Virus record (IMG/VR): IMGVR_UViG_3300044615_001148
Location: 1 to 32,960 of that record
Reading direction: 5' to 3' (one strand)
From: a virus
Length of the DNA stretch: 32,960 nucleotides
Shown here one piece after another: positions 10,684 to 32,960 of this stretch. The first letter of the stretch is position 1; each line of letters opens with the position of its first letter. The position numbers and the translations under genes are program-made. The notes beneath the pieces were generated by a model that saw nothing but the letters and a program-made list of their open reading frames with translations, did not search any database and had not been told where the DNA came from.

Positions 10684-11211
10684 ATGGAGTGGATTATCCG
10701 CCTGTTCGCAGGCTTGACGGCAACGTTCGCCCTTGTGGGCTTTTGGGGGATGTCCGAACCGACCCCTCCTCCACCTACCCCCACCCCTGTAACGACGCTT
10801 ATAACGCTTCCTATTGCGCCTGAGACGGTACCTACCACCACTTTGCCGATACCGGCAGATGCCCTCTGCCCCCAATGGTGGGCCTTGGCTGTCGAGGCAG
10901 GCTGGACACCCGACCTCCTCCCCACCTTGGACTATGTGATGTGGCGCGAGTCCCGATGCCAGCCCGAGGCACACAACACCACCCTCAACCGAGATGGCTC
11001 AGCCGACGTCGGCCTCACCCAAATCAACGACCGAAGCTGGTGCAAAGGCACACGCTGGTATCCAGGAGGATACTTGCAAACCGTCGGCGCATTATCTACT
11101 GTTGGATGCGAACAACTATTCGACCCATACCTCAACCTCCTCTCAGCGAAAGCCATCTACGACTATGCGCAAACAACCAACGGAAACGGATGGCAACCGT
11201 GGAAACTCTAA
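10684..11211 (+). CDS. Secreted lytic transglycosylase-like (SLT) protein
   Basis: 175 residues. Residues 4-22 are a membrane or signal helix, 25-60 a Pro/Thr linker, then a lysozyme-like domain with the catalytic Glu in WRESRC (E89) and the GLTQIN motif (110-115) of soluble lytic transglycosylases. Cysteines at 62, 92, 120 and 142 may form disulphides outside the cell. It cleaves the glycan backbone of peptidoglycan. It lies far from the lysis block and next to WhiB, so it may remodel the wall early in infection rather than lyse. Preceded by AAAGGGGAAA at 10671. Confidence 0.82.
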   Translation: MEWIIRLFAGLTATFALVGFWGMSEPTPPPPTPTPVTTLITLPIAPETVPTTTLPIPADALCPQWWALAVEAGWTPDLLPTLDYVMWRESRCQPEAHNTTLNRDGSADVGLTQINDRSWCKGTRWYPGGYLQTVGALSTVGCEQLFDPYLNLLSAKAIYDYAQTTNGNGWQPWKL

Positions 11212-11221
11212 GTACACGTAC

Positions 11222-11479
11222 ATGCAACTGCTAAGCGAATGGGAACTGGCCGACAAACACCAGGACTGGAAAGACGAAGCAGCCTGCTACGGACTCTCAG
11301 GCGACCTGTTCTTCCCAGGAGACAACAACCACTACAACCCCGAAGCGTTCACAATCTGCAACCGATGTCCGGTACGTGAACGCTGTCTAGCATTTGCAAT
11401 GAACAACTACATCGCATACGGTATTTGGGGTGGAATGACCCCACCGGAACGACAACGATACAGAAGAAGCTTGTGCTAA
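11222..11479 (+). CDS. WhiB-family Fe-S transcription factor
   Basis: 85 residues from ATG 11222; an in-frame ATG at 11165 would add 19 residues but lies inside the previous gene. Four cysteines match the family cluster site: C22, then C46-x2-C49-x5-C55 (ICNRCPVRERC). The GIWGG turn (67-71) and TPPER precede a basic tail RQRYRRS that contacts DNA or sigma factor. WhiB proteins bind sigma-A region 4 with a [4Fe-4S] cluster; phage versions redirect host transcription. The family is restricted to Actinobacteria and their phages, which defines the host phylum. Confidence 0.92.
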   Translation: MQLLSEWELADKHQDWKDEAACYGLSGDLFFPGDNNHYNPEAFTICNRCPVRERCLAFAMNNYIAYGIWGGMTPPERQRYRRSLC

Positions 11480-17386: not shown

Positions 17387-17586
17387 GACCCCGCTTCCGT
17401 GCCGGCATCGTCGATGAGGAGCATACGCGCATTGCGTCCACTCCATTCGGCCTCCGTGGGCATACCGTCGTCGTCGGTCGATGACGGTTCGCTAATCTCC
17501 AACCCGATGCGGTTCAGAAGATCCGTTACCTCGCCGTCGGTCAAGGGGCGAGAGGTACGAAACGTTACAGATAGTTCGTAGTTCAT
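17374..17586 (-). CDS. Small acidic protein
   Basis: 70 residues from ATG at 17586, with GGAGGAGG about 8 bases upstream and an ATGA overlap with the first gene. MNYELSVTFRTSRPLTDGEV begins a ferredoxin-like beta-alpha-beta pattern with an acidic loop (SEPSSTDDDG). No family recognised. Confidence 0.6.
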   Translation of the reverse strand: MNYELSVTFRTSRPLTDGEVTDLLNRIGLEISEPSSTDDDGMPTEAEWSGRNARMLLIDDAGTEAGSWRW

Positions 17587-17831
17587 CCTTGCACCTCCTC
17601 CCATACCCAACCCTCAACCGTCCAAGTACCATCAGGCAGCTCCTCCCAACCCGCCAGATGGGAGGGGATTCCGTCGTAGTCATCGTTTGGGGTATCCCAA
17701 CCCAACCGAACACACTCCGCCAAGATCCGTTGCCGTTCTTCGGCAGGAAAGACCGGTTGGGCGTAGCCGTTGATGTGGAGGGGAACCGATAACGCCGTAG
17801 CGAATAGCTGCCCGTTGATAGTTAGCCTCAT
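17583..17831 (-). CDS. First gene of minus operon, unknown function
   Basis: 82 residues from ATG at 17831, preceded by GAAAGAGAGAGAGAGA. MRLTINGQLFATALSVPLHI looks like a two-strand start, followed by a helix (AEERQRILAECVRLGW) and an acidic, Trp-rich end (GTWTVEGWVWEEV). It leads a polycistronic message with overlapping start/stop junctions. No known family. Confidence 0.65.
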   Translation of the reverse strand: MRLTINGQLFATALSVPLHINGYAQPVFPAEERQRILAECVRLGWDTPNDDYDGIPSHLAGWEELPDGTWTVEGWVWEEVQG

Positions 17832-17847: not shown

Positions 17848-17866
17848 TGTCAGCTCCTTGCTGACA
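17848..17866 (-). promoter_or_regulatory. Leader hairpin with ribosome-site-like loop
   Basis: A perfect inverted repeat TGTCAGC-N5-GCTGACA lies 17 bases upstream of the first minus-operon ATG. On the transcript the loop reads AAGGA followed by G of the stem, so a Shine-Dalgarno-like sequence is held in the hairpin tip. It may be a translational control element or a protein-binding operator. Confidence 0.6.
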
Positions 17867-17872
17867 TCATCA

Positions 17873-17901
17873 AAGATACGGCATACCGTTATCGGATGCA
17901 A
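17873..17901 (-). promoter_or_regulatory. Promoter of the minus-strand operon
   Basis: On the minus strand TTGCAT (17901-17896), a 17-base spacer and TATCTT (17878-17873, fitting the actinobacterial TAnnnT -10). The spacer contains an operator-like dyad at 17875-17893, GATACGG-CATA-CCGTTATC with one unpaired base, which overlaps the -10 edge. This would drive all twelve genes. Confidence 0.6.
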
Positions 17902-18024
17902 GGACAGTTGCAAAAAGTAACACGATCGCAACACACCCAACCTACCCGCGAGTAACATAGGCGGAGGCAACCGCTAACTACCGAACCCAAAGTGCTAGCA
18001 ATAGTTAGCAGTACTTTAGTACTA

Positions 18025-18076
18025 GTGGTTGCGTGACTACTCTCCGTAGCCGGTCACTCTCCGTGGCCGCAACCAC
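18025..18076. ncRNA. Possible structured RNA or DNA element with two TCTCC loops
   Basis: An outer 9-base-pair stem GTGGTTGCG (18025-18033) with CGCAACCAC (18068-18076) encloses two hairpins with the same loop: CTAC-TCTCC-GTAG (18037-18049) and GTCAC-TCTCC-GTGGC (18053-18067, one G-T pair). The result is a three-way junction. On the plus-strand RNA the loops are complementary to GGAGA ribosome sites. Transcription has not been shown and a DNA role (origin) is equally possible. Confidence 0.45.
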
Positions 18077-18080
18077 AGAG

Positions 18081-18129
18081 CGTGGCGATCACCAAACACG
18101 CGTTCGCCCAAACAAACGTTCGCGCCACG
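18081..18129. repeat. Inverted repeat CGTGGCG / CGCCACG
   Basis: Perfect 7-base arms (18081-18087 and 18123-18129) enclosing 35 bases that themselves contain two CGTTCG copies. It directly follows the three-way-junction element and belongs to the same repeat cluster. Confidence 0.6.
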
Positions 18130-18252
18130 GGGGGTCTGCCCACGCACCCGCCTACCCATATACGTATTAGGTGTTTTCTGTGTGGTCATTTTTGTGGTTG
18201 GGTCACGGGGCGCGTGAGGTTGGGCTACCTGGTGGCGCCGTGTATGCACAGA

Positions 18253-18274
18253 GGGAGGTGGGGGTGGGAGGGGG
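18253..18274 (+). other. G-quadruplex motif
   Basis: G runs of 3, 5, 3 and 5 separated by loops of 4, 1 and 1 bases on the plus strand. This satisfies the usual G3+N1-7 rule with short loops, so a stable parallel quadruplex is likely in single-stranded DNA or RNA. Confidence 0.65.
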
Positions 18275-18347
18275 TGTGTTGGTTATCTTTTGTGCTGCGC
18301 CTGGTCGCGCCTGTTCTCGAGGTCGTGTGAGCATCAGTGGTAGCAAC

Positions 18348-18391: not shown

Positions 18392-18519
18392 TCAGGCTTT
18401 TCTTTAGCCCCCCCAAGTTCTGTTTTACGCCTGAACCCGTCTGTCTTGATACCGAAAGAAGGCGACCACCATCGGTCCCCTTTTCAGGCCACTCATCCCG
18501 TGCGATCTAACCATGCTGC

Positions 18520-18542
18520 CCTCACCGATAGTTGTGGTGAGG
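18520..18542. repeat. Hairpin CCTCACC / GGTGAGG
   Basis: Perfect 7-base arms with a 9-base loop. No T-rich tail follows on either strand, so a classical intrinsic terminator is not indicated; it may be a protein site near the terminase block. Confidence 0.55.
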
Positions 18543-18620
18543 AGGAATGTAATCGTTTAGGGTCCGTATTCTTTGGGTGTTGTGCGCGTCTCTCGACGTG
18601 GCGGTGTTGAGTGTAGCAGG

Positions 18621-18678
18621 TGCCGGTCGACGCCAACAACCCGTCGCACAACCCATATGCGATCAACGCCGACCGGCA
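18621..18678. repeat. Nested inverted repeat just upstream of the packaging genes
   Basis: TGCCGGTCG (18621-18629) pairs perfectly with CGACCGGCA (18670-18678). Inside it TCGCA (18644-18648) pairs with TGCGA (18658-18662). The structure ends 21 bases before the first gene of the packaging/head operon, a usual location for a terminase recognition (cos or pac) site. Confidence 0.6.
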
Positions 18679-18699
18679 GCGTGTATGCTAGCAGGCACA

Positions 18700-19263
18700 A
18701 TGGCTAAAGCAATCAAGCGTGGTGATTCTTCAAACGATTGGGGCGGCTACGGATCAAAAGCTGCGTACATCAACGCAATCGCATCAGGACAAGTGAAGCG
18801 TTCCGAGATGGGTGTTGGTGGTGTAAAAAGTTTGTTTGTAAAAGCCATAAGTTCGGTATTGAAAACGCCGCCTGTCAAGAACGCTATTCGTAATATCGGT
18901 GATGATGTTGCTGACGATCTTGTTCGCGGTTTGGGCAAAGCACCGAGCGCTACCGGAAAGACTGTTCGTGTGTCGAAACAAGCTGATGTGTATACGCCGC
19001 AGGGCGTATTCAAAGGCAAAGATGTGTTTGTGAAGAAACCTGATTTGACTGCTAAACAAATTGAAGGAATTGCAAAAGCTCAGGCCACAAGGCAAGCGAA
19101 TGATTGGGCGCGACTTTCAAGTGCTGGTCGTAGGGGTGCTGCGGCTGGTGGGATTGGTGGCGCTGCTGGTCTATATGCTGCGCAAAAGGGTGTCGGTTAC
19201 GTGAAGGATGCTGTATCGACTGCAAAGAAGCGCGCTCGCGGAGGCGGGAAGAACAAGAAGTAA
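18700..19263 (+). CDS. Basic protein preceding terminase, unknown function
   Basis: 187 residues from ATG 18700; longer in-frame starts would run through the upstream inverted repeat. It starts MAKAIKRGDSSNDWGGYGSK, has basic helical regions and an Ala/Gly-rich segment GGIGGAAGLYAAQKG near the end, finishing KKRARGGGKNKK. There is no clear ribosome site, but a TATGCT -10-like element at 18684 could give a leaderless or nearly leaderless message. The place before the large terminase is typical of small terminase, yet it lacks an obvious HTH. A DNA-binding or virion role is possible. Confidence 0.6.
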   Translation: MAKAIKRGDSSNDWGGYGSKAAYINAIASGQVKRSEMGVGGVKSLFVKAISSVLKTPPVKNAIRNIGDDVADDLVRGLGKAPSATGKTVRVSKQADVYTPQGVFKGKDVFVKKPDLTAKQIEGIAKAQATRQANDWARLSSAGRRGAAAGGIGGAAGLYAAQKGVGYVKDAVSTAKKRARGGGKNKK

Positions 19264-21239: not shown

Positions 21240-21260
21240 TTTGCTATCGTATTGGAGACT

Positions 21261-23015
21261 GTGCGCTCACTAGACGAAATCGTTGAACTCTACCACCAGC
21301 GCCGGCTCGCGGCTGGACCTGTACATGAGCAGATGCGTCGCGTACGCGACCTCGCCAACGGTGACGTCGTAGTACCACTCAACGAGTTAGACCGCAACGC
21401 CAAAACTAACGTCGCCAACCTGCTCGTGCAGGGCTTGGATCAGATGTCGATGCGTGTATCGTCCACGATGCCATCACCGTTCTTCCCTCCGGTGAAGGAA
21501 GGTTCGGAGAACGCCAAGAAGTATGCGCGTATGCGCAAGAAAGCATTGCTGTCGTTCTGGGATGAGAACAAGATGCAGATGAAACTGCGTCGCCGCGCAC
21601 GACACCTTCTCGCCTACTCATCCTCCCCAGTCTTCATCAAACCAGACTTCGCCACCCTCACCCCAAAATGGGTCGTACGCAACCCGTTGGACACGTTCGC
21701 TGCCCCAATGGAAGACGATGACGTTGTACCAGAAAACTGCATCTTCACTTCACGCGTCACCGCATCATGGCTTCTCAAAAACTATGGGCCACTCGTCTCA
21801 GACCAGTTACGTTTCGGTCGCGTTGACTCCGACTCCCGCTACACACTCCTCGAATACGTATGCGGAGACTCCATGCAACTCATCGTCTTGGGTGCCGAAG
21901 ACAACCCCGAGCTGTCACAGTCTGAGCGTGCAGGTTTGGAAGCAATCCTTCTCGAAGCAATCCCGAATCGCACCGGTATGCCACTCGCAGTCGTACCACA
22001 ACGCATCACCCTCGATAAACCACGCGGCCAATTCGACGGCGTACTCGGCATGTACTACACGCGTGCCCGCCTCCAAGCATTGACCGAAATTGCTATTGAG
22101 CGCGGCATCTTCCCTGAAGAATATTTGGTTGCACGCCCAGGAGAAAACCCTGAGATCATGCAACTTGCCGACGGCAAAGCCGGCATCCTTGGTGTTGTCA
22201 AAGGTGGCGACATCCAGCAGTTGCAACTAAATCCTGGTTACAAAACCGACACAGCCCTTGACCGTTTGGAACGCCAAGAACGTCTTGAAGGCGCGATACC
22301 CGCAGAGTTCGGTGGCGAGTCCGCAACCAACATCCGAACCGGACGCCGAGGCGAAGCCGTTCTTTCTGCGACCGTGGATTACCGTGTACAAGAAGCACAA
22401 GAAACCTTCGCCAACTCGTTACTCCACGAAGATAAAATCGCCATCGCACTCGAAAAAGCGTATTGGGGTGAACAACCAAAAACATTCTTCTTGAGTGGTC
22501 GTACGACACAAGGCCAAGAGTCCTACACGCCGAACAAAGTGTGGCAAACCGACTTCCACTACGTCGCATATTCGGCAGCAGGCTCGGATGTGAACTCGCT
22601 CATCATCGGACTTGGACAACGTTTGGGTGTCGGTTTGATGTCAAAAGAATCTGCCCGCGAAGCCGACCCACTCATCTCCGACCCCGACTTGGAGCATGAT
22701 CGCATCATCGCAGAAGGCGTCGAAGCCGCACTCCTGCAATCCATCCAACAGCAGGCAGCCAACCCTGAAGGCCCATACCAGCCAGACGACCTCGCCTACC
22801 TCACCCGCCTCGTCGTAGAACAAGACGTCCCACTATTCGACGCGGTACGTCGCACCGATGAACGGGCACGCGAACGACAAGCACAAGCGATGCCAGCAGG
22901 CTCACCAGAAACCATGCCAGGACTAGCAATGCCAGGTATGGGCGCTGAAGCACCCGCAGCCGGACCAGCAGGCCCGCCACCGATCGAGGCACTACTCGCA
23001 CAACTGGGGGCATAA
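21261..23015 (+). CDS. Portal protein
   Basis: 584 residues from GTG 21261; TTG 21252 is an alternative. Helical N-terminus (EIVELYHQRRLAAGPVHEQM), then NVANLLVQGLDQMSMRVSSTMPSPFFPP, a core with beta strands (VVRNPLDTFAAPMEDDD) and a long C-terminal helical region with ERLEGAIPAEFGGESATNIRTGR, ending in a Pro/Gly/Met tail. The order matches portals of actinophages. It follows terminase and precedes head genes, and forms the dodecameric DNA entry ring. Confidence 0.85.
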   Translation: MRSLDEIVELYHQRRLAAGPVHEQMRRVRDLANGDVVVPLNELDRNAKTNVANLLVQGLDQMSMRVSSTMPSPFFPPVKEGSENAKKYARMRKKALLSFWDENKMQMKLRRRARHLLAYSSSPVFIKPDFATLTPKWVVRNPLDTFAAPMEDDDVVPENCIFTSRVTASWLLKNYGPLVSDQLRFGRVDSDSRYTLLEYVCGDSMQLIVLGAEDNPELSQSERAGLEAILLEAIPNRTGMPLAVVPQRITLDKPRGQFDGVLGMYYTRARLQALTEIAIERGIFPEEYLVARPGENPEIMQLADGKAGILGVVKGGDIQQLQLNPGYKTDTALDRLERQERLEGAIPAEFGGESATNIRTGRRGEAVLSATVDYRVQEAQETFANSLLHEDKIAIALEKAYWGEQPKTFFLSGRTTQGQESYTPNKVWQTDFHYVAYSAAGSDVNSLIIGLGQRLGVGLMSKESAREADPLISDPDLEHDRIIAEGVEAALLQSIQQQAANPEGPYQPDDLAYLTRLVVEQDVPLFDAVRRTDERARERQAQAMPAGSPETMPGLAMPGMGAEAPAAGPAGPPPIEALLAQLGA

Positions 23016-31977: not shown

Positions 31978-31999
31978 CCCACGGGCATAAACCTGTGGG
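31978..31999 (+). other. Hairpin between scaffold and capsid genes
   Basis: CCCACGGG (31978-31985) pairs with CCTGTGGG (31992-31999; one G-T pair) around a 6-base loop, directly after the scaffold stop. No T tract follows, so it is not a standard terminator. It may protect or process the capsid message. Confidence 0.6.
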
Positions 32000-32016
32000 A
32001 GAAAGAACCACAGGAA

Positions 32017-32960
32017 ATGTCCAAGACACAACAGAGCAGCCTGCTCACAGACCAGGTTGCATTTGACAGGATTGCGTACTTCGCACTCCGCAGCGAACTT
32101 TTGTTCGACGCGGTTGCAGACGTGATGCCAGTCGCACAAGCAATGCCAGGATCATCGGTGAAGTTCACCATTTTCAATGACCTGAGCGAGAAGACCAGCA
32201 CCTTGACTGAGGACACCGACGTGACCCCAGTTGTCATGGGTGACAGCCAAGTTGAAGTGACGTTGGATGAGTACGGCAATGCCGTGAACACCACCGCCAA
32301 GTTGCGTGGCACGTCGTTCCTTGACGTGGATGCGGCAGCCGCAAACCTCGTTGGTTACAACGCCGGTATCAGCATTGACGGAGTTATCCGTGACGTGCTT
32401 TCGGCTGGCACCAACGTGATCTACGGCGGTGGCGGAACCACCACCCCAACTGCTCGCAACAACATTGCGGCAGCAGACATCATCGAGGCAAACGACGTTC
32501 GCAAGATTGTCGCCGCTCTCCGCAAGGCCAACGCTGTTTCGTTCAACGGCATGTACATGGGTTACATTCACCCCGATGTGAGTTACGACCTTCGCCGTGA
32601 AACCGGTGTCGCGTCGTGGCGTGACCCGCACGTGTACAGCGACCCAGCCGGTATCTACAACGGCGAAATCGGAGCCTTCGAAGGTGTGCGTTTCATTGAG
32701 ACGCCACGTGCGAAGATTTTCGAGAACGCCTCCAACGGCTCAGGCTCGACGGGCACCATTGACGCGTACTGCACCCACATCTGTGGACGTCAGGCACTCG
32801 CCAAGGCCCACTCGATCGTGGATGGCAACGGCGCGTTCCCACGCGTTGTGCGCGGTCCAGTGGTCGACGTGCTCCAGCGCTTCCAGCCAGTCGGCTGGTA
32901 CTGGCTCGGCGGTTACGCACGATTCCGCGAGGCTTCACTGCGTCGCATTGAGTCGGCGTC
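32017..32960 (+). CDS. Major capsid protein, N4-gp56 family (3' end outside window)
   Basis: The frame is open to the window edge, 314 residues plus a partial codon are visible. ATG 32017 follows CAGGAA and, farther, GGGAGAAAG. Recognisable N4-gp56 family features: an N-terminal helix, YNAGISIDGVIRDVLSAG, MYMGYIHPDVSYDLRR, GEIGAFEGVRFIETPRAKIF, and QPVGWYWLGGYARFREASLR near the visible end. This is an HK97-fold capsid protein. Expression is driven by the nearby promoter through scaffold. Confidence 0.92.
   Translation, partial: MSKTQQSSLLTDQVAFDRIAYFALRSELLFDAVADVMPVAQAMPGSSVKFTIFNDLSEKTSTLTEDTDVTPVVMGDSQVEVTLDEYGNAVNTTAKLRGTSFLDVDAAAANLVGYNAGISIDGVIRDVLSAGTNVIYGGGGTTTPTARNNIAAADIIEANDVRKIVAALRKANAVSFNGMYMGYIHPDVSYDLRRETGVASWRDPHVYSDPAGIYNGEIGAFEGVRFIETPRAKIFENASNGSGSTGTIDAYCTHICGRQALAKAHSIVDGNGAFPRVVRGPVVDVLQRFQPVGWYWLGGYARFREASLRRIESA

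Follow-up and report, generated by a model that had tools for sequence, protein, structure and literature searches.

A covarying structured RNA upstream of the terminase gene in a lineage of environmental phages, and the reading of a nearby inverted-repeat cluster

Introduction

Does a dense cluster of inverted repeats in front of a phage terminase gene mark a replication origin, or does the noncoding DNA around it serve another role? The DNA analysed here is the IMG/VR record IMGVR_UViG_3300044615_001148 (32,960 bases, classed as linear; hereafter the window), which is from a tailed phage, as its terminase large subunit (terL) and portal genes indicate. A divergent noncoding gap of ~870 bases extends from a leftward gene (17583-17831) to the start of a rightward gene at 18700, and an earlier note had singled out the inverted repeats at 17961-18129 within it as a possible origin, packaging site or structured RNA. 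Comparison with relatives, for which 80 terL loci were fetched, reveals two far more deeply conserved blocks in the gap, 18126-18199 and 18403-18590. A structured RNA at 18406-18569 is near certain from the pattern of substitutions. We consider the chances about even that this RNA is a cis-acting 5' leader of the terminase and late transcript and that 17961-18129, instead of being an origin, serves the leftward operon as regulatory DNA. The gap thus appears special, as had been supposed, through a covariation-supported RNA and a packaging-site- or promoter-like block, but both lie essentially outside the cluster.

A structured RNA in the divergent gap

The RNA core of the window, termed form R1, starts ~280 bases beyond the inverted-repeat cluster and precedes terL (Table 1). 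A pattern scan for homologues gave 52 stretches, corresponding to 41 distinct sequences. Across these, 97.7% of cells are paired in the R1 structure, compared with 89.5% in shuffled alignments and 46.9% for the best slid version of the structure; as the structure was drawn on the tested alignment, the slid control is generous and the weight rests on the compensatory changes at individual pairs. Such changes are present at 13 of the 36 pairs, and 138 cells have both sides changed (44 in shuffles), with a covariation score of 0.253 as against 0.095 ± 0.006 for shuffled alignments. The covariance model of R1 matches the window with 194 bits, the window sequence itself being part of the model.

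The structure comprises a 5' domain predicted to form an H-type pseudoknot, a hairpin with a UUUC tetraloop and a branched 3' domain. In the 5' domain, the middle pair of the CGCCU/AGGCG helix (alignment columns 28-32/61-65) is CG in 28 sequences and UA in 13, and is broken in none. The crossing GUUC/GAAC helix is invariant across homologues and is thus a putative helix; in the possible further helix ACCG/CGGU, three pairs are invariant and the fourth is broken in 11 of the 41 sequences. Because the first helix and most of the third are invariant, the pseudoknots are in part predictions. The UUUC hairpin changes to CUC[UUUC]GAG in L018 and L019 through two double changes, and to CCG[UUUC]CGG in the bridging forms described below. 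Ten pairs of the 3' domain show compensatory changes, and its apical hairpin varies freely in sequence with pairing mostly kept.

U-G pairs on the + strand, which is that of terL, would be A-C on the other strand, indicating that the + strand is transcribed. Single-base indels fall in the most conserved part of 18406-18569 and break the reading frame, which indicates that the region is noncoding and excludes a coding sequence there.

Forms and spread of the RNA

In more distant relatives, the R1 model matches diverged copies weakly at the same place (E 0.01-0.23). The diverged loci show two further forms, which begin with TTTAGCCGACACC and carry an additional 5' hairpin domain. In one of these, form R2 (22 sequences), 93.0% of cells are paired (68.6% when shuffled), 24 of 28 pairs show compensatory change and the covariation score is 0.631, as against 0.183 ± 0.016 in shuffles. 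With covarying helices conserved across relatives, R1 and R2 are treated as one new RNA family. The R2 model matches 47 of the 80 terL relatives and R1-type elements cover 29 others, which brings the total to 76 of 80, and every match at these 76 loci is on the terL strand. Three of the four unmatched loci have less than 900 nucleotides (nt) of upstream sequence; the fourth, L050, has ~1,700 nt and no match. Bridge forms in L036, L049, L053, L059 and L070 match R2 with 54-74 bits and, at the same place and over the same range of E-values as above, R1 with 11-15 bits. Full homology of R1 and R2 is likely but not proven, because the R2 model fails to detect the window RNA directly. The viral scan with the second-form pattern gave at least 120 stretches, and TerL relatives number at least 479. 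The strand, structure, place and spread of the RNA are all drawn from such sequence comparisons: it accompanies terL through nearly the whole lineage examined, a group of environmental phages.

At the gathering threshold, Rfam 15 gave no match for the window, seven relatives or three stretches of Beephvirinae, a group discussed below, and a permissive Rfam search of the gap returned one chance match only, to a microRNA model (E 2.2). INPHARED isolate phages likewise gave chance matches only for the RNA pattern. No description of the R1/R2 RNA was found in the open-access literature, although absence there and in Rfam is no proof of novelty. Structured phage RNAs that have strong covariation and are absent from catalogues are uncommon finds.

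A different type of constraint, on the DNA as such (cosB or protein-binding sites), might be suspected at 18406-18569 from the very high sequence conservation and the nearby cos-like block. This is highly improbable, given that compensatory changes extend over long-range helices, including pairs that close internal loops, and that U-G pairs occur on one strand only. A DNA-only constraint is largely refuted by the compensatory changes in both forms.

As a separate observation, R2 variants in L215, L243, L279, L291 and L292 contain an additional inserted segment (from ...CTTACRCAACAGGGGCA... to ...GTTGCAGG...), resembling ribozyme peripheral domains.

A candidate leader of the terminase and late transcript

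In the reading to which we give about even chances, transcription would proceed rightward from or near the conserved block 18126-18199, and the nascent RNA would fold into the pseudoknotted 5' domain, the UUUC hairpin and the branched 3' domain. We infer where the transcript would end, its partner and its effect on regulation: as a leader antiterminator or attenuator does, the folded RNA would determine whether RNA polymerase gets past the hairpin region that follows and enters the late operon, which is long and tightly packed. Covariation in two forms and the constant strand at 76 of 80 loci are in support of such a leader. The distance from the RNA to terL ranges from 250 to 1765 nt, and the intervening genes differ or are absent. 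Since the gene that follows the RNA is replaced or absent in some relatives, the leader would serve a whole operon and not one gene, and a polymerase-acting leader fits better than a single-gene riboswitch. If this is true, an RNA layer would be added to the late-expression switch, or to packaging, in actinobacterial phages.

The flanks of the RNA offer candidate start and end signals. In ~45 loci, GGGGTMTGCCGAGSC, an AT-rich stretch and GTGTGTGGTTTTGTG stand in this order upstream of the RNA, about 110-360 nt away, and the block 18126-18199 is probably a promoter and/or a cos site. The fetched loci show no accumulation of contig ends at the block, but they are metagenome assemblies, which do not preserve ends. 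Between the block and the RNA (18200-18300 in the window), G and T strongly predominate on the + strand across 43 loci (mean keto skew +0.43), in a sequence that otherwise varies. On the other side, a GTAGCA box lies ~200 nt past the RNA start, at a conserved position in most relatives, and in many of them is followed by TGCTAC and a T-run, a further point in support of the leader; in several relatives these stand directly before a start codon. TGCTAC with the T-run would suit either a terminator or the -10 box of a leaderless gene. It was also observed that TGCCGAGGCA in the upstream block is nearly palindromic in many relatives.

Several results weigh against a leader of this type. The folding energy of the R1 core is unremarkable (z -0.56), so that energy alone would have missed the RNA, and in the window the folding of the 3' hairpin region does not surpass that of shuffled sequence (z +0.61). 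A sigma-70 scan did not find a promoter. In some relatives, a -10-like box immediately precedes the next start codon, suggesting that the RNA could be a separate transcript. Also, the RNA is 160-200 nt long and exceeds the ~70-nt put RNA (PMC9378689), the system with which it is best compared.

The put RNA of HK022 consists of two stem-loops in lambdoid early operons and needs no phage protein to act on RNA polymerase (PMC9378689). Like put, the window RNA would be a phage leader encoded on the same strand as the operon under its control, and it has compact helices. Unlike put, it is predicted to be pseudoknotted and branched and lies upstream of the terminase and late genes, and the R1 core has 164 nt and seven helices. 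Of known modes of action, that of put would come closest, but with its ~70 nt and two stem-loops put is not of the same family. CBASS-activating viral RNA of staphylococcal phages (PMC10686824) is also a structured phage RNA from the terminase region, whereas the window RNA is intergenic and upstream. GOLLD and ROOL are large structured phage RNAs of unknown function (PMC12286853); they are ~600-800 nt or more and lie near tRNA islands, whereas the window contains no tRNAs and its RNA has no Rfam match.

The main rival to a cis-acting leader is a free-standing noncoding phage RNA with its own promoter and terminator, which would act in trans, for instance by helping to take over the host or by serving as a decoy for one of its defence factors, and would adjoin terL merely as a stable genome position. 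Many near-invariant unpaired positions, a C-run that coincides with the RNA start or lies close to it, terminator-like sequence after the RNA in several relatives, -10-like boxes ahead of the next gene and independence of the downstream gene are all consistent with this idea. We regard it as less likely than a leader, though a serious contender: the RNA keeps throughout to one strand and to a site just ahead of the late genes, and no copy was found elsewhere.

A possible role in packaging and the Beephvirinae leader

The position of the RNA also raises the possibility of a packaging RNA, which would either belong to the terminase motor or guide it, at the place where TerS is usually encoded. 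The pRNA of phi29, ~174 nt, is encoded at the genome end beside the packaging genes, in a phage without a classical TerS. The R1 core (~164 nt) is of similar size and also lies beside packaging genes, between the cos-like block and terL, but it has no Rfam match, and the motor here is a phrog_38 TerL with a fused helix-turn-helix (PF01381, E 0.00027, residues 25-56, slightly below the Pfam cut-off). No separate TerS was recognised by sequence, a means by which TerS proteins are hard to detect. Nothing observed points to an RNA in this motor class, and any leader of a terminase operon would occupy the same spot; a packaging RNA is thus unlikely. By the same measure it is doubtful that a TerS-less phage lineage uses a structured RNA between cos site and terL in packaging, which would mean that packaging RNAs had arisen a second time, independently of the phi29 group.

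A comparable layout is found in isolates. The closest isolate TerL proteins are those of Streptomyces Beephvirinae (~26% identity), and their N-terminal segment resembles a helix-turn-helix. In complete Beephvirinae genomes, terL starts 624-679 nt from the genome end, is the first annotated gene or the second, and has no terS in front of it, a layout that suits a packaging RNA as well; only in Stella does the annotation place a small hypothetical gene within the leader. The sequence from the genome end to terL is conserved, with GGTATATATATAATGGGG (a TATAAT-like box) in some members, and includes two hairpins with compensatory changes, an arrangement that also supports a terminase leader. The likeness thus lies in conserved noncoding sequence with covarying hairpins between a genome end and a terS-less, helix-turn-helix-bearing terL. 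By contrast, the R1 and R2 models had no match at the corresponding place, the best R2 match being a minus-strand stretch inside genes (13.5 bits), and the Beephvirinae leader is for this reason termed analogous, not homologous. With this leader beside a mapped genome end, the idea could be tested in laboratory phages, which would provide a culturable case for the packaging reading. The leader of this group, ~400 nt of conserved noncoding sequence at ~215-660 in L334, L335 and L337-L344 and without an Rfam match, is possibly another structured RNA.

The inverted-repeat cluster

All the repeats listed in the earlier note were found where it had placed them (Table 1), and the density of inverted repeats is above chance. 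The 170-nt stretch contains 12 exact six-base inverted arm pairs (within 60 nt), the mean of the record windows being 2.2, and 12 or more occur in 0.16% of record windows and 0.1% of dinucleotide shuffles, a significance that is somewhat overstated because the site was picked after the fact. Folding is only moderately better than in dinucleotide-shuffled controls (z -3.2 for RNA of the + strand, -2.2 for RNA of the - strand and -1.8 for DNA of the + strand), and a + strand z at least as low is seen in 7 of 193 genome windows. The stems are in part mutually exclusive, because positions 17973-17974 belong to both GCGG/CCGC and GCTAAC, and the listed set is absent from the minimum-energy folds.

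Among all loci compared, 17961-18129 can be aligned to only six distinct ones (L005, L006, L007, L009, L112 and L116); L015 shares just a 38-nt piece. A look for a common layout in relatives had been proposed as a check; the two long stems break in these six, with 58.7% of cells paired across the alignment for the 9-bp stem and 55.1% for the 7-bp stem. Of the two outcomes that had been named as telling against the cluster, unconserved arms are thus seen for the long stems, whereas folding slightly surpasses that of shuffles. The GCTAACTA...TAGTTAGC arms are paired in 94.6% of cells and near-invariant, with zero compensatory change, and the direct-repeat cores CTCTCCGTRGYCG (spacing 17) and AAACANRCGTTCGC (spacing 16) are kept in all seven aligned sequences. 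Because stems are broken while repeats are kept, 17961-18129 is likely to be clade-specific, operator-like regulatory DNA of the leftward operon, which is a better fit than an origin or an RNA; GCTAACTA...TAGTTAGC around TGCTAGCA (17973-18009) appears operator-like. Of the six loci with this region, five also have relatives of the first leftward gene, which encodes 82 amino acids (aa).

None of the three roles suggested by repeat density, i.e., origin, packaging site or structured RNA, is supported for 17961-18129. A structured RNA was rejected as the arms break in relatives and folding is barely beyond shuffles. An origin composed of iteron-like direct repeats and cruciform-forming inverted repeats would accord with the inverted-repeat density, the retention of two direct-repeat pairs at 16-17 bp spacing in seven sequences and a local change of skew nearby. 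It is nevertheless very unlikely: few terL relatives have the region, the long stems are unconserved, the region is not AT-rich and gave no AT-rich unwinding element, and no initiator was recognised among the matched genes (many genes are unknown). Cumulative GC skew, proposed as a check, has only a local dip at 18 kilobases (kb), the overall minimum being at ~23-24 kb. An iteron-type origin at the direct repeats of the cluster is possible but weakly supported.

The leader of the leftward operon includes a further operator-like element, the palindrome at 17875-17893, both arms of which co-change in L008 and L009 such that it stays palindromic (GATAAGGGATACCCTTAT and CTAAGGCATAACCTTAG).

Neighbouring features

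Table 1. Coordinates of features in the window
Feature	Position	Strand	Remarks
WhiB-like regulator	10994-11479		phrog_472 and others
First leftward-operon gene, 82 aa	17583-17831	-	no Pfam or PHROG match
Leftward-operon leader	17848-17893	-	hairpin TGTCAGC/GCTGACA 17848-17866; palindrome GATACGGCATACCGTTATC 17875-17893
GCGG/CCGC	17961-17974		inverted repeat
GCTAAC/GTTAGC	17973-18009		inverted repeat; extends to 8 bp, GCTAACTA/TAGTTAGC
Palindrome TGCTAGCA	17993-18000		between the GCTAACTA and TAGTTAGC arms
AGTACT-TT-AGTACT	18010-18023
9-bp stem	18025-18033/18068-18076
Direct repeats	18039-18069		ACTCTCCGTAGCCG 18039-18052 and ACTCTCCGTGGCCG 18056-18069; spacing 17
7-bp stem	18081-18087/18123-18129
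Direct repeats	18094-18123		AAACACGCGTTCGC 18094-18107 and AAACAAACGTTCGC 18110-18123; spacing 16
Deeply conserved DNA block	18126-18199		G-run and GGTMTGCCGAGSC (window: GGTCTGCCCACGC from 18133), AT-rich ATATACGTATTAG, then GTGTGGTCATTTTTGTGG
Conserved structured RNA core, form R1	18406-18569	+	41 distinct homologues; 36 pairs, 7 helices
5' domain, predicted H-type pseudoknot	18417-18464	+	GUUC 18417-18420/GAAC 18433-18436 crossing CGCCU 18428-18432/AGGCG 18460-18464
Possible further pseudoknotted helix	18451-18476	+	ACCG 18451-18454/CGGU 18473-18476; putative
UUUC-tetraloop hairpin	18479-18488	+	CCU[UUUC]AGG
3' domain	18497-18562	+	18497-18499/18560-18562, 18502-18506/18552-18556, 18512-18526/18536-18549; variable apical hairpin on top
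GAGTGTAGCAG box and inverted repeat	18609-18699	+	repeat 18621-18632/18667-18678; candidate RNA 3' end/terminator or next-gene promoter
Gene between RNA and terL, 187 aa	18700-19263	+	basic, Gly/Ala-rich; no PHROG match
terL, N-terminal helix-turn-helix	19263-21239	+	phrog_38, E 7e-64
Portal gene	21252-23015

The record also encodes recombination proteins of the RecE and RecT types and a cytosine methylase. An actinobacterial host is hinted at by the WhiB-like regulator gene, the only clue to the host of these metagenome-assembled sequences; a bacterial genome collection, consulted for prophages that would reveal the host, had no match for the TerL alignment or the RNA pattern.

Gene content between the RNA and terL is very changeable, as in L042, where a 413-aa open frame in this interval looks by eye like a methyltransferase. 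A second conserved stem, GTTGGYGGG ... CCCRCCAAC, is present downstream of the RNA, shortly before a start codon, in L022, L025, L027, L028, L038, L039 and L057; in several of these loci it is followed by GTGTATSATA, and it is possibly a further leader or promoter element. Far from the gap, the + strand at 31980-32140 has a strong predicted structure (z -5.7), where the genome-window folding scan also has its lowest z; the structure covers the leader and start of an open frame whose first base is at 32019 and whose end lies beyond the record.
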